A stretch of DNA of 64,000 bases from Extensimonas perlucida (lineage in GTDB: Bacteria; Pseudomonadota; Gammaproteobacteria; Burkholderiales; Burkholderiaceae_C). Positions 36,328-41,612 of this stretch are shown here, piece after piece. The stretch's first letter is position 1. Each line of letters begins with the position of its first letter. Below the pieces are notes generated by a model. It did not search any database and had not been told where the DNA came from. It was given only the letters and a program-made list of their open reading frames with translations. Location: assembly GCF_007655255.1 (NCBI RefSeq), contig NZ_VMYE01000018.1:1-64000 (forward strand), written 5' to 3'. A program made the position numbers and the translations under genes.

Positions 36328-36511
36328 CACGGCCCGAAAGGCTTTTCGATGGTGGGGGCCCGGGGTGTGGTCGCCGGCCTCGTCGAAGAGCGCTGGCAAG
36401 TGCGGGACAGCGCGCTCGGCGCATCCTTTCTACAATGGCCTTGCACCGCCGCGGCCCGCCCTCGCCGGCCAGCGCGCGGCGCCCCATCATCATTCCCGCA
36501 CGTCCCTGCCC

Positions 36512-37591
36512 ATGTCCTCTGCTGCCGAACTCGAACGTGCCTTGCACTACCCGCTTGCCGACCGCCTGCCGCCGCGCGGCGGTGCGATCGAAGTGGCGCC
36601 GGGCGTGCTCTGGCTGCGCATGTCCCTGCCGTATGCGCTTGACCACATCAACCTCTGGCTGCTGCGCGACCACATCGACGGGCGCGACGGCTGGAGTGTG
36701 GTCGATTGCTGCATAGACCGCGCCGAGTCGCGCGCCGATTGGGAGCAGGTGTTTGCAAGCCAGTTGCAGGGGCTGCCGATTCTGCGCGTGATCGTCACGC
36801 ACATGCACCCCGACCACATCGGCCTCGCGCACTGGCTGTGCGAGCGCTGGAGCACGCCCGTGCACGAATGCCAGCTGTGGATCAGCGCCACCGACTACCA
36901 GGCAGGGCTCTACAACTCCGCGGTGGTGGACGACGTGCGCGCCGAGCGCTCGGCGCAGTTTTTTGCGAGCCACGGCCTGCGCGATCCGGACGAGCTCGAA
37001 AAAATCCGCCAGCGCAAGAGTTATTACAGCAGCCACGTGCCGGCCGTGCCGCCGACCTTCCGGCGCCTCATGGACGGCAACGTGCTGCGCATAGGCGCGC
37101 ATGAGTGGCGCTGCATCGTCGGCTACGGCCACGCGCCCGAGCACATGGCGCTGTATTGCGCGGCGCTGGGCCTGTTGATCAGCGGCGACATGATGCTGCC
37201 GCGCATCTCCACCAACGTGAGCGTCTATGAGGGCGAGCCCGAGGCCGACCCGCTCACACTGTTCCTCGACTCGATCGACCGCTTCGAGGCGCTGCCCGCC
37301 GACACGCTGGTGCTGCCCGCGCACGGCAAGCCCTTCGTGGGCCTGCACACGCGCATCGCGCAGCTGCACGAGCACCACCGCGCGCGCCTGGCCGACGTGC
37401 TCGTCACGGCACGCGAGCACCCCGTGACGGCCCACGAGCTGCTGCCGGTGCTGTTCCATCGCCAGCTCGACTTGCACCAAACCACCTTTGCGATGGGCGA
37501 GGCCGTGGCGCATCTGCACCGCCTCTGGTACGCGGGAGAGCTGCGCCGCACGCGCGACGCACAAGGCGTGTGGCGCTTCGCGTTGGCGTGA
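36512..37591 (+). CDS. MBL-fold metallohydrolase with C-terminal winged-helix domain
   Basis: A 359-aa metal hydrolase. The metal-binding motif is THMHPDHIG (His97, His99, Asp101, His102), with further ligands at GHAPEHMALY and GD(M) in LLISGDMML, and PAHGKPF near the end. The C-terminal 80 residues form a helix-turn-helix-like domain (HELLPVLFHRQLDLHQTTFAMGEAVAHL) as in LACTB2/RNase Z-like hydrolases. Start MSSAAELERAL is in family position. Substrate unknown; hydrolysis of a thioester or a lactone would fit the neighbouring acyl-CoA genes but is only inference. Confidence 0.88.
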   Translation: MSSAAELERALHYPLADRLPPRGGAIEVAPGVLWLRMSLPYALDHINLWLLRDHIDGRDGWSVVDCCIDRAESRADWEQVFASQLQGLPILRVIVTHMHPDHIGLAHWLCERWSTPVHECQLWISATDYQAGLYNSAVVDDVRAERSAQFFASHGLRDPDELEKIRQRKSYYSSHVPAVPPTFRRLMDGNVLRIGAHEWRCIVGYGHAPEHMALYCAALGLLISGDMMLPRISTNVSVYEGEPEADPLTLFLDSIDRFEALPADTLVLPAHGKPFVGLHTRIAQLHEHHRARLADVLVTAREHPVTAHELLPVLFHRQLDLHQTTFAMGEAVAHLHRLWYAGELRRTRDAQGVWRFALA

Positions 37592-37648
37592 GCAACTGGC
37601 GTGTGAATTTTGGGAGCAGGCGCGGCGCGCGCGTGGCGGACCTGACGC

Positions 37649-38647
37649 TTACACCGTCAATGTGTTGGCCAGTTGAGCGAGTGACGGCCCGTCTTTCTGA
37701 AGCCCCCAAAATTCCGTGCCAGGGATAGCGCTGATTGGAGGCTGGATCTGGTTGCGCAAGTGCAGCGTCAAGTCGGTCAAGGATGAAAACTCCCTGCCGT
37801 TCCAGCGCACCTTACCCTCGCCCAGGTAAATCGCCTGCCGCTCGCTTTCTGCCAGGGGCGGCAGGTTTTTATGGATGGGCTTGACGAGGTACAGTGCGTC
37901 GCCCGTGCGAAGTTTGCCTGCGGCCTCGAGCAAGGGGCAGGTGCGCTGACGTCGGGCGGATGCAACGGCGGTTTGTCGTGCCATAGCGGCGTTGCGATCG
38001 CGCACCTGCACCAAGTAGTCTTCTTGCTGTGGCAGTGGAATCAGCAAGTCGATATATAGCGCATGGTTTCCGTTGCCCAAGGCGTACAGCTGTACCGTGA
38101 AGCAATACATCTTGAAGCCGTCCATGCGCTCCATGAGCCACATTGCGGTCGTGGTGATTTCGGGGCTGAAGTCGCGTGCCACCAGGATGACCTGGGGCGT
38201 CGTGCCCAGCTTGACAGTGGAGATATCCGGTTCGCCTAAAAACTCCAAAATTTCCGCTTGTGCCTCATCCCTACGGGCATCGGTGCGCTTTTTCAGAAGC
38301 TGATGATGTCGCGCATCTACGACATGCTCGATGGTGTGGTTGGAGAGCATGGCCGCGTATCGCAGGGCCTGTAACTCCGCGTGCCCACCGTCGCCGGTGC
38401 GCTTGATTTCGACGACGTACAGCTGGGCTTCTTCGTCCATGGCCAGCAAATCGATCGATTGCTTGGCGTTGCTCCAGGCGCCATATTCGGCGGCGATCAC
38501 CATCAGCGGTTGCGCAGGTAGTAGGCAGGGAAGGTGTTGCTCTAGTAGATCACGTAAACGCGCCTCCAGCAGCTGTTCGGATTCGAACGTGGTGGGCTCC
38601 AGCAAGCTGGATTGGCTGAGGTCGGCTTGACAGGTAAAAAGCGGCAT
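37649..38647 (-). CDS. PD-(D/E)XK nuclease-like protein with RAMA-like C-terminus
   Basis: The 332-aa protein starts MPLFTCQADLSQSSLLEP; the frame is open far upstream but only in the shadow of the MFS gene. Residues about 25-110 look like the NucS/DUF91 nuclease fold: ERLRDLLEQHLPCLL-type helix, then IDLLAMDEEAQLYVVEIKR with the Asp and Glu-x-Lys of the active site. The C-terminal part (VRWNGREFSSLTDLTLHLRN...GTEFWGL) resembles the RAMA/DUF4357 domain often attached to restriction-modification proteins. Codon choice is looser than in the neighbours, suggesting a mobile origin. No methylase is next to it. Function not established. Confidence 0.75.
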   Translation of the reverse strand: MPLFTCQADLSQSSLLEPTTFESEQLLEARLRDLLEQHLPCLLPAQPLMVIAAEYGAWSNAKQSIDLLAMDEEAQLYVVEIKRTGDGGHAELQALRYAAMLSNHTIEHVVDARHHQLLKKRTDARRDEAQAEILEFLGEPDISTVKLGTTPQVILVARDFSPEITTTAMWLMERMDGFKMYCFTVQLYALGNGNHALYIDLLIPLPQQEDYLVQVRDRNAAMARQTAVASARRQRTCPLLEAAGKLRTGDALYLVKPIHKNLPPLAESERQAIYLGEGKVRWNGREFSSLTDLTLHLRNQIQPPISAIPGTEFWGLQKDGPSLAQLANTLTV

Positions 38648-38743
38648 GATCGATGCTCGAATTCGGGTGTGGCGTGGCAGCGCTTGGAGTGTAGTGCCAC
38701 CACCGCGAGAATGATCCTGCCCCACCATTTCGATGCCATTGCC

Positions 38744-40123
38744 ATGACCGAAGCCCCTTCCCCACCCCGCCCGAGCAACCAGTTTGCCCTGCTGCGCGAG
38801 CGGCGTTTTGCGCCATTTTTCTGGGCGCAGTTTGCCGGCGCGGCCAATGACAACCTGTTCAAGTTTGCGCTCACGGTGCTGGTGACCTACCAGTTGCACG
38901 TGGCGTGGCTGCCGCCTGCGCTCGCGGGGGTGGTGATAGGGGCGCTGTTCATCCTGCCGTTCGTGCTGTTTTCGGCCACCAGCGGGCAGCTCGCCGACAA
39001 GTTCGACAAGACCACGGTGATCCGCCTGGTCAAGAACCTCGAGATCGCCATCATGGCGCTGGCGGCCTGGGCCTTTTTGGAGGAACAGGTGCCAGTGCTG
39101 CTGGCCTGCGTGTTTTTGATGGGGCTGCACTCCACGCTGTTCGGCCCGGTCAAGTACGCCTACCTGCCGCAGGTGCTCGACGAGCGTGAGCTCACGGGTG
39201 GCAACGGGGTGGTGGAGGCGGGCACCTTCGTCGCTATTTTGCTTGGCAACGTCGCCGGGGGGATGCTGGTGGCAGTGCCGCAACGGGGGCATGTGTATGT
39301 GGCCGCGGCCTGCGTGGCGCTGGCCCTGGTGGGGCGCGCGGCGGCGCAGCGCATCCCTGCGGCGCCGGCGACCGATCCGGGCCTGCGCATCTGCTGGAAT
39401 CCGGTCAGCGAAACCTGGCGCAACCTGCGGCTGGCGCACGCGCAGGCGGTGGTGTTCCGCGCGCTGCTGGGCATTTCGTGGATGTGGTTCTTCGGCGCCA
39501 CGTTCTTGAGCAATTTCCCGGCCTTTGCCAAGGAGGTGCTGCACGGCAACGAGCAGGTGGCGTCGCTCTTGCTGCTGGTGTTTTCGGCGGGCATAGGACT
39601 TGGCTCGCTGCTGTGCGAAAGGCTCTCGCACCGGCATGTGGAAATCGGCCTCGTGCCGCTGGGTGCCATCGGCATGACGGTGTTTGCCATCGATCTTTAC
39701 TTTGCCGCGCGCGGGCTGGTGCCGCCGACGGGCCTTGATGCGGGCGCGGGTGTGGATGGGGGTGCTGCTGCGGCGTACACGCTGCGCAGCTTCGTGGCGC
39801 AGGCCGCACATTGGCGCGTGATGGCGGACCTGGCGCTGCTCAGCCTCAGCGCGGGCCTTTACAGCGTGCCCATGTACGCGCTGATCCAGCTGCGCAGCGC
39901 GCCCACGCACCGCGCACGCATCATCGCGGCCAACAACATCCTGAACGCGCTGTTCATGGTGGCCAGCGCCCTCATCGCCGCGGTGCTGCTGCAAAGCGGC
40001 TTTTCCATTGCGCAGCTATTCCTGCTCACCGGCCTGGCCAATGCCGCGGTGACCGGCGCCATCTTCTGGCTGGTGCCCGAATACCGGCTGCGCTTCGTGG
40101 CTTGGGTGCGCGGGCGCGGTTGA
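38744..40123 (+). CDS. MFS transporter, LplT-like
   Basis: A 459-aa inner-membrane protein with about 12 hydrophobic segments. The opening (FALLRERRFAPFFWAQFAGAANDNLFKFALTVLVTYQ) and the loop SGQLADKFDKTTVIRLVKNLEI match the lysophospholipid flippase LplT and the MFS half of the Aas-LplT fusion. In this lineage such transporters import lysophospholipids or related lipids. The start at 38744 (MTEAPSPP) is preferred; another ATG lies 11 codons upstream. Divergent from the nuclease-like gene. Confidence 0.87.
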   Translation: MTEAPSPPRPSNQFALLRERRFAPFFWAQFAGAANDNLFKFALTVLVTYQLHVAWLPPALAGVVIGALFILPFVLFSATSGQLADKFDKTTVIRLVKNLEIAIMALAAWAFLEEQVPVLLACVFLMGLHSTLFGPVKYAYLPQVLDERELTGGNGVVEAGTFVAILLGNVAGGMLVAVPQRGHVYVAAACVALALVGRAAAQRIPAAPATDPGLRICWNPVSETWRNLRLAHAQAVVFRALLGISWMWFFGATFLSNFPAFAKEVLHGNEQVASLLLLVFSAGIGLGSLLCERLSHRHVEIGLVPLGAIGMTVFAIDLYFAARGLVPPTGLDAGAGVDGGAAAAYTLRSFVAQAAHWRVMADLALLSLSAGLYSVPMYALIQLRSAPTHRARIIAANNILNALFMVASALIAAVLLQSGFSIAQLFLLTGLANAAVTGAIFWLVPEYRLRFVAWVRGRG

Positions 40124-40172: not shown

Positions 40173-41612
40173 TCAAAAAGATTGCCTGGCCAACTCACCG
40201 ATACGGCACAAGGCTCGCCGCTCCGTGTCGGACCAGCATCCTGCAAAGCTCAGGCGCAGGCAGTGATCGAAACGATCGGTGGCGCTGAACAGGGAGCCAG
40301 GGCTGAAAACGATACCTTCCTCCCGGCACGCATGAAACAAGACCATGGTGTTGCACGGTTGTGGCAACTCCAGCCATAAAGTGAACCCGGAAGGTGGCGC
40401 ACTGACCCTCGTTCCTTTTGGGAAACTCGCGGCGATGAGCTTTCTCGCCTCTGCCAGACGCACGCGCATGTGGTCGCTCAGGCGGCGCATGCGGGACTCA
40501 TAACCTACCTGCGTTACCAGGTCTGCCAGCGCATATTCGAGCACCTGATTGGTCGCAATGCCATGCACCCGCTTCAGTCGATGCACAGACTCTTTCCACC
40601 GACCTGCTTCGACCCAGCCCAGACGGACACCGGGCGCAACCGTCTTGGAAAACGAGCCGCAGACCATCACACCCCCATCGGCATCAAAAGATTTGGCCGC
40701 TCTGCGGCGTTCATCCGAAGCCAGGAGGTCGTTGAAGACTACGTCTTCAATCAGCGGGACTTGCTTCTCGGTCAGCATTTTGACCAGAGCCTGTTTATCG
40801 CTGTGGCGCATCACTGACCCGAGCGGATTGGAAAGGGTAGGAACCACCAGCACGGCCTTGACCGGCTGCGTGTCCAAGGCCAGTTGCAGTGCCGCCAGTG
40901 AAATGCCCTCCTTGGGATGCGTGGGAATTTCGAGCGCGCGCAGATTCAGCGATTCCAGCAAGTCCAAAAAGCCAAAGTGCGTCGGTGACTCCAGGGCCAC
41001 GATGTCACCTGGTTTGGTGACTGCCCGCAGGCACAAACTGACGGCATGAATGCAGCTGGCCGTCACCACGATGTTGTCGGCCTTGAGCTGGCATCCGAGG
41101 TGAAACGCCCTTTGGGCTACCGCCTCACGCAGAGCCGAAGTACCGGGGGAATCGCTGTACTCCACCAAGGTGAAGCGGTGCACGCGCGTCGCGCGCTGGA
41201 TCGCCGTGCGCACCCTGGCTTCATCGAAGAAAGTCGGATCTTTGGGGCAAGCGCCACCAAAACTGACCGCATGGGTGGTGTCGGTCACCGTGAAAATCAG
41301 TTCTGCGCGGCTTTGGCGCTCCACGAGCAGGCTGTGCCGCGGCGGACGGCTGACCGCCGGCAATGCAGGCGCCTTGCCGGCCGGCGCCACGAAATAACCG
41401 GCCTTGGGTTTTGCCGCGACGAGTTTGCGCTCCTCCAGCCAGCGCAGCGCCTGCACGGCCGTGGAGATGGACACACCGTTGGTGGCCGCGAGGTCACGCA
41501 CCGACGGTAAGCGCTGACCGGGCTTGAACGCCCGGCTGTCGATCAAGTGCGCCATCCGCTGGGCGATCTGCGCATAGAGCGGCAGAGAGGAATGCTGCGT
41601 CTCGGCGTTCAT
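40173..41612 (-). CDS. MocR-type regulator (GntR domain fused to an aminotransferase-like domain)
   Basis: A 479-aa transcription factor: an N-terminal GntR winged helix (SLPLYAQIAQRMAHLIDSRAFKPGQRLPSVRDLAATNGVS) and a class I aminotransferase-like domain with the PLP-binding Lys in CGSFSKTVAPGVRLGWV and NPLGSVM. Such proteins sense PLP or amino-acid aldimines; PdxR, GabR and TauR are examples. The divergent neighbour is a DUF2917 gene, with a 184-base gap between the starts. Target and ligand unknown. Confidence 0.9.
   Translation of the reverse strand: MNAETQHSSLPLYAQIAQRMAHLIDSRAFKPGQRLPSVRDLAATNGVSISTAVQALRWLEERKLVAAKPKAGYFVAPAGKAPALPAVSRPPRHSLLVERQSRAELIFTVTDTTHAVSFGGACPKDPTFFDEARVRTAIQRATRVHRFTLVEYSDSPGTSALREAVAQRAFHLGCQLKADNIVVTASCIHAVSLCLRAVTKPGDIVALESPTHFGFLDLLESLNLRALEIPTHPKEGISLAALQLALDTQPVKAVLVVPTLSNPLGSVMRHSDKQALVKMLTEKQVPLIEDVVFNDLLASDERRRAAKSFDADGGVMVCGSFSKTVAPGVRLGWVEAGRWKESVHRLKRVHGIATNQVLEYALADLVTQVGYESRMRRLSDHMRVRLAEARKLIAASFPKGTRVSAPPSGFTLWLELPQPCNTMVLFHACREEGIVFSPGSLFSATDRFDHCLRLSFAGCWSDTERRALCRIGELARQSF

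Follow-up and report, generated by a model that had tools for sequence, protein, structure and literature searches.

The gene at 37649..38647 (minus strand) of the window, by which we mean the whole stretch of 64,000 nucleotides analysed here, most likely encodes a restriction-type nuclease that acts alone in defence and would dock on DNA by its RAMA tail. Its 332-amino-acid product combines, according to sequence and predicted structure, a PD-(D/E)XK nuclease fold carrying an intact catalytic set with a C-terminal RAMA fold; it belongs to a family of defence candidates, and the gene stands alone at a site that varies between species. The reading frame is intact, running from an ATG at 38647 to a stop at 37649, and is present as a single copy in its own genome (3.58 Mb, 50 contigs). 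Restriction of incoming DNA is the best reading of its function; gating by a modified base is an attractive possibility.

Nuclease core and RAMA tail

The nuclease core covers about residues 27-204 (38036..38569, minus strand), as delimited by an AF2 model, superposition on EndoMS/NucS with VIA-align and a HMMER profile. The model was built from 60 sequences (the window protein and relatives from genome contigs) and reached a pLDDT of 90.5 and a pTM of 0.66 for the whole protein; as the pTM is modest, the relative placement of the nuclease and RAMA domains is left open. A nuclease fold is seen in this model. Among Foldseek's best 1000 structures, VIA-align superimposed EndoMS 5gke_A on residues 23-196 (Z 11.0, rmsd 2.6, 113 aligned) and NucS 2vld_A on residues 27-197 (Z 11.0, rmsd 2.2, 108 aligned). 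Foldseek itself placed NucS 2vld_A at the top of its PDB list (E 1.6e-3), followed by E. coli SduA; MPND 7ydw_B came sixth (E 0.075), and no PDB match of the model fell below E 1e-3. Sequence searches with the single protein gave fainter signals: sub-threshold Pfam matches only, to NucS_C (E 0.0028), DUF234 and Cas4, NCBIfam scores for NucS and Cas4 far under the cut-offs (NucS equivalogs at 18.7 of 216 and 16.5 of 252 bits), and no PDB sequence match at E<=1. The profile of the 60-row alignment, in turn, reached NucS 2vld_A in HMMER at E 0.00097, in an alignment where the D, E-x-K and Q positions coincide, and NucS_C was matched (E<=0.1) in 13 of the 15 RAMA-tailed members, window included, at best with 1.6e-6. 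Together with the superpositions, these matches bear out the NucS/DUF91-like PD-(D/E)XK region proposed earlier in a sequence-only reading of this DNA.

Residues D66, E80 and K82 form the putative catalytic core D66...E80-x-K82 (38402..38452, minus strand; codons 38450-38452, 38408-38410 and 38402-38404). They are invariant in 94/94 aligned family members, window included, and coincide in alignment with the NucS residues D, E and K, so that a conserved D, E-x-K catalytic set is present in the predicted PD-(D/E)XK fold; the "EIK motif" singled out in the earlier reading is E80-I81-K82. In the PD-(D/E)XK superfamily, residues such as these bind metal and cut DNA. The QxxxY motif Q93-A-L-R-Y97 (38357..38371, minus strand) is likewise found in all 94 members, a conservation that is partly due to selection, since the scan fetching L026-L105 required this motif. 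Both domains are joined by a linker with a long helix (residues 205-234; 37946..38035, minus strand), which DSSP assigns on the model as H208-234; the 10-residue mean pLDDT is 76-81 over residues 201-240.

In the case of the tail, residues 235-332 (37652..37945, minus strand), predicted fold and sequence profile agree on a divergent RAMA domain. VIA-align superimposed the RAMA domains of MPND (7ydw_B; Z 9.7, rmsd 2.2, 84 aligned) and CcrM (6pbd_A; Z 9.5, rmsd 2.5, 81 aligned) on these residues. The DALI Z published for MPND RAMA against CcrM RAMA is 10.4 (PMC9963953), and the modelled tail therefore resembles either of them nearly as much as the two resemble each other. A profile of 15 tails aligned by hhalign with five CcrM RAMA domains gave 80.1% (score 33.6), as opposed to 0.1% for DUF4268 tails, 0.5% for 'KYDV' and 0.1% for 'WSLE' tails and 3.7% for DUF2924; 50 column-shuffled RAMA profiles stayed at or below 2.5% and a score of 17.6. 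DUF2924, guessed by eye as the identity of the tail, was rejected on this comparison (3.7% versus 80.1%). Pfam's own RAMA model (PF18755) misses the tail: searched against the own genome (E<=0.001), the 15 RAMA-tailed members (E<=0.1) and the tail alone (E<=10), it returned no match. The designation "RAMA-like tail", made at first from the letters, thus stands on structural and profile matches.

The proposal that RAMA reads methylated adenine arose from sequence, and for MPND, a eukaryotic RAMA protein, two reports contradict each other (PMC9963953, PMC11037411). According to one of them, MPND bound double-stranded DNA with a KD of 1.5 uM, binding to single-stranded DNA was not detectable, 6mA did not significantly raise binding, and the RAMA domain of CcrM touches the DNA backbone only (PMC9963953). 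As MPND showed no clear 6mA preference in that study and the CcrM domain contacts only the backbone, the tail could act simply as a DNA clamp. A survey of BREX systems terms RAMA a reader module (PMC12839542), and RAMA is proposed as a reader where RAMA-Mrr-NTPase and GIY-YIG-RAMA fusions are named (PMC11037411). Accordingly, we regard DNA docking by the RAMA tail as likely and modified-base reading as plausible.

Family, tail types and distribution

PADLOC assigns the protein to PDC-S11 (PDLC04909, E 1.5e-62, residues 1-234), and five PDC-S11 models matched at E 1e-17 or better. The best model aligned over positions 1-224 of its 347 only, its C-terminal part being unmatched, so that the RAMA tail lies outside the PDC-S11 match and the likeness concerns the nuclease half. 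In the available portions of the literature found naming PDC-S11, no mechanism is described. In a panel of P. aeruginosa, PDC-S11 was carried by 10 strains, of which 90% resisted phages, a small sample of unspecified tail type (PMC10855318); in S. suis, PDC-S11 co-occurs with other systems (PMC12813430).

Relatives are present in 9/299 genomes of the family, own genome included, a count that takes in one marginal case (G234, E 8e-4 over 48 residues). Within the genus, the gene was found in one of three genomes and not in the other two. A universal core gene, which would have spoken against a defence role, is thereby rejected. Relatives were further detected in 340 of 72,556 plasmid records and in one of 50,697 phage records, a faecal scaffold without annotation that encodes a different tail. 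A single-protein scan of IMG/VR, able to find close relatives only, returned none, and the best match in BFVD was Gp54 of Bacillus phage G (E 3.5e-6). Besides the window, no RAMA-tailed copy was found in 398 sampled genomes of the phylum by a tail-only search, nor in 399 sampled genomes of the order by a full-length search, in which 27 genomes gave any match at all. L026 and L030, from Burkholderiales and Comamonadaceae MAGs by their titles, do carry a RAMA-tailed gene.

Of the 508 relatives found in genome contigs, the 80 nearest to the window protein were retained, and the tail proportions are therefore biased: 43 DUF4268, 22 'KYDV', 17 RAMA (window included), 8 'WSLE', 2 EVE/PUA-like by eye and 2 unclassified. 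Classes were assigned from seed sets picked by eye, 'KYDV' and 'WSLE' being labels coined here; L009 as well as L085 and L086 (without usable ORF) were excluded from the family set. The two EVE/PUA-like tails, which would represent another class of modified-base readers, belong to L060:10001-11152 and L099:10001-11119; Pfam detects no such domain in them. DUF4268 is a Pfam domain of unknown function, and Pfam found it in both of the two DUF4268-tailed members tested. It also occurs in homologues of the type IV system GmrSD (PMC4619093). For the DUF4268-tailed L047, an AF2 model (pLDDT 86.9) resembles type III secretion chaperones and YbjN-like proteins from about residue 220 to 366, with Z up to 8.7, a level that may reflect a common arrangement only. 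This modelled fold hints at a protein-docking role of the DUF4268 tail beside type I RM enzymes.

In a rapidly built tree of the nuclease part, 2 changes sufficed to explain the RAMA label, compared with a mean of 15.7 after shuffling (0/500 shuffles as low), and the nuclease and RAMA tail appear therefore to have mostly travelled together. All tail types taken together required 14 changes (minimum possible 4, shuffled mean 43.6), so that the other tails would have been swapped more often, on a tree with 35 weak branches among its 90 inner ones. Among the end branches several are long, that of the window protein included (1.27), which makes its exact placement unsure. The RAMA branch is minor yet spread over many phyla: it includes Pseudomonadota, Cyanobacteriota, Chloroflexota, Verrucomicrobiota and Thermodesulfobacteriota, and plasmid-borne RAMA-tailed members come from Halobacteria, Bacteroidota and Actinomycetota.

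Chromosomal site and gene neighbourhoods

The gene is flanked by an MBL-fold hydrolase gene on the left (36506..37591, plus strand; Pfam Lactamase_B) and by a divergent MFS transporter gene on the right (38744..40123, plus strand; Pfam MFS_1), both outside the system. None of the ten scanned neighbours between 31.4 and 49.5 kb is a defence, RM or methylase protein (Pfam, E<=1e-10). They comprise a LysR regulator, aldehyde dehydrogenase, acyl-CoA dehydrogenase, 3-hydroxyisobutyrate dehydrogenase, the MBL hydrolase, the MFS transporter, a GntR/aminotransferase regulator, DnaE, a Clp-type ATPase and enoyl-CoA hydratase; one further neighbour is DUF2917. With metabolic, transport, regulatory, DnaE and Clp proteins around it, the gene indeed has no methylase beside it, as had been noticed from the sequence. 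A search for sigma-70 promoters in 37500-38800 found none, with 0.4 expected by chance.

Comparison with a congener delimits a species-variable stretch of about 1.09 kb at the MBL hydrolase-MFS transporter junction (37624..38712), in which the nuclease-RAMA gene is the only gene recognised. The corresponding locus of congener G135, L130, aligns with the window on both sides, at 91.8% identity as far as 37623 and at 91.9% from 38713 onwards; the intervening 2.8 kb, enclosed by the same pair of flanking genes, is different DNA. Its cargo (L130:2833-5736) consists of a DUF1016_N/YhcG_C PD-(D/E)XK nuclease and an AlbA_2/Fic-like_C protein. Since G135 holds another nuclease here, the junction is a variable site with different nuclease cargo in two species. 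The YhcG_C match in L130 spans 81 of 157 positions only; this nuclease is perhaps truncated, and the cargo may be the remnant of a restriction island. Border repeats marking the insertion ends were not seen, the repeats found being short and partly degenerate. In congener G222, aroC presumably adjoins the MFS gene. The idea of an old, family-wide MBL-MFS site was rejected, as this adjacency was not found in 29/29 loci of other genera within about 1.5 kb of flank; aroC was seen in 0/29 of the same loci.

The different codon style reported earlier for the gene was recovered in numbers. Its GC content is 58.3%, compared with 68.3% and 66.7% in the two flanking genes, and its GC3 is 0.711 against a mean of 0.827 (sd 0.057), a value undercut by one of the 36 other called genes of at least 150 aa; by codon likelihood, 3/36 other genes lie further out. 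Another odd gene is that of the regulator at 40173-41612 (GC3 0.722). For this test genes were called by a custom script, with the MFS gene absent from the reference set and the acyl-CoA dehydrogenase missed by the caller. Horizontal transfer would account for the pattern. At the left end of the window, a lower-GC stretch (58-60%) holds a minus-strand ORF with a DUF5983 C-terminal domain (957-1694).

The neighbourhoods of relatives were surveyed with genes called by a custom script, and the context counts exclude eleven loci without called target. According to phmmer with a small reference set, restriction or methylase genes lie near 4/15 RAMA-tailed loci and near none in the remaining 11/15; three of these four match themselves, as they supplied reference sequences. 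L011 adjoins a type IIG-like methylase and L013 an MT-A70 methylase; for L012 the neighbour is a type I R gene, and for L028 type I M and S genes turn up no more than five genes away. With the same approach, type I RM genes were found near 14 of the 36 DUF4268-tailed loci with called neighbours; 14/36 versus 4/15 is not decisive for a difference between tail types. Among 101 neighbours within four genes of the 15 RAMA-tailed loci, the best 25 of 109 Pfam families included two HSDR_N, two ResIII and one C5 cytosine methylase, and the best 25 of 388 in PADLOC included three mad3, two PDC-S49, two RmrA, one type I R, one type II methylase and others. Another tally, of the best 25 of 102 families, took in 99 of 100 neighbours and left out L039:3056-9592. 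Several RAMA-tailed relatives nevertheless have surroundings like those of the window gene: ten neighbours from eight such loci were an acyltransferase, a KAP NTPase, gamma-glutamyltranspeptidase, NUDIX, P450, nitroreductase, GFO/IDH and DUF5131 proteins and two unmatched ones. Solitude in the RAMA branch is not strict, and relatives with other tails sit in BREX and type I RM operons. At two cyanobacterial loci (L027:7927-9867 and L028:7917-9947), the RAMA-tailed gene is divergent from a KAP-family NTPase gene, at a distance of 133 and 53 bases, respectively.

Proposed function and alternative readings

On balance, we favour a stand-alone, horizontally moved defence nuclease in which RAMA grips double-stranded DNA and selects the target, while the PD-(D/E)XK domain cuts it. 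The C-terminal RAMA domain would grip double-stranded DNA, and the N-terminal NucS/EndoMS-type domain, probably dimeric, would cut with Mg2+ via D66, E80 and K82. Which DNA is cut would most likely be decided by the RAMA tail, in the manner of a modification-dependent (type IV style) restriction enzyme. The host would be spared by lacking the target mark in its own DNA, and for this reason no cognate methylase would be needed; a RAMA domain reading the host's own marks would be harmful. We infer DNA cleavage, metal use, dimerisation, phage restriction, horizontal transfer and modified-base reading. The PADLOC match, the two folds in one confident model, the invariant catalytic residues, the patchy spread, the site with another nuclease in a congener, the odd codons, the relatives in BREX and type I RM operons, the P. 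aeruginosa panel and the two papers treating RAMA as a reader speak for this reading. The suggestion of a stand-alone defence candidate is strengthened by the PADLOC entry, which lists PDC-S11 as a single-gene candidate, and by the other nuclease at the same junction in the congener.

Other fusions of RAMA with endonucleases, RAMA-Mrr-NTPase and GIY-YIG-RAMA, are proposed modification readers, and RAMA-HNH is said to be under study (PMC11037411, PMC12707154). The window protein shares the joining of RAMA to a nuclease, but its nuclease partner is another one and an NTPase is lacking. PMC11037411 does not use the word NucS, and titles and abstract openings among the matches listed for RAMA with nucleases, phage or restriction contain no description of a NucS-RAMA fusion. 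NucS-RAMA might be a new, methylase-free architecture of modification-dependent restriction, with RAMA as a true base-modification reader licensing the cut and the family as a nuclease chassis with exchangeable tails, a broader proposal that we consider less likely than not. On such a chassis, a RAMA tail would confer stand-alone DNA reading, and the secretion-chaperone-like DUF4268 fold would dock to partners, e.g. type I RM enzymes, with further roles for other tails. The RAMA-nuclease fusion turns the reader question into a cleavage assay: if cutting proves mark-dependent, RAMA is a reader, and if the assay works, PDC-S11 gains its first mechanistic handle.

Shedu (SduA) is the PD-(D/E)XK nuclease of a one-gene defence system; the window protein, which gave no Pfam SduA_C match, differs from it in its C-terminal RAMA tail. 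RAMA could correspondingly be a non-specific clamp on a Shedu-like lone nuclease, possibly acting by abortive infection, with self and non-self told apart by the form of the DNA (ends, unusual structures) or by a phage trigger. We judge this unlikely. E. coli SduA 8ps5_A is a partial structural match to the core (Z 8.0, rmsd 5.5), SduA_C matched weakly in 2/15 RAMA-tailed members (best E 0.057) and at E 0.001 in one relative with another tail, and the binding of MPND, not significantly raised by 6mA, points the same way. However, NucS superimposes better than SduA (Z 11.0 versus 8.0), and in the other endonuclease fusions RAMA is proposed as a reader (PMC11037411). We find it distinctly less probable that the protein belongs, as an accessory or degraded component, to a host RM system encoded elsewhere and works only with host methylases or type I enzymes. 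This would suit the type I RM genes beside 14/36 DUF4268-tailed relatives, the methylases at L011 and L013, and six N6_N4_Mtase matches on other contigs of the own genome. Against it, RM proteins account for 0/10 scanned window neighbours and 11/15 RAMA-tailed loci lack RM genes by the small reference set; the window protein differs from the DUF4268-tailed type I RM accessory nucleases in having no DUF4268 match (tail profile 0.1%), and the DUF4268 tail is predicted to fold differently, nearest to secretion chaperones and YbjN-like proteins. The counts for the two tail types are too small to prove a difference.

A DNA repair nuclease, i.e. a NucS/EndoMS-like mismatch or lesion endonuclease with RAMA as its DNA-binding domain, we consider very improbable. 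EndoMS/NucS are the closest solved structures of the core, and the likeness extends to the D, E and K catalytic residues. The defining part of NucS/EndoMS, however, is a domain N-terminal to the nuclease. The core starts at about residue 23-27 in the window protein versus 126-131 in EndoMS/NucS chains, and with only about 26 residues preceding it there is no room for this domain, in place of which the window protein has RAMA. The NucS equivalog scores lie far under their NCBIfam cut-offs, and the patchy, species-variable distribution and odd codon usage are unlike a housekeeping repair gene.

Four of the six N6_N4_Mtase matches lie in two similar gene pairs with methyltransferase domains and equal scores (C1:21128-23087 and C49:63881-65840). 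The C1 pair starts with a ParB-like domain by eye, and the pairs possibly belong to related prophages.
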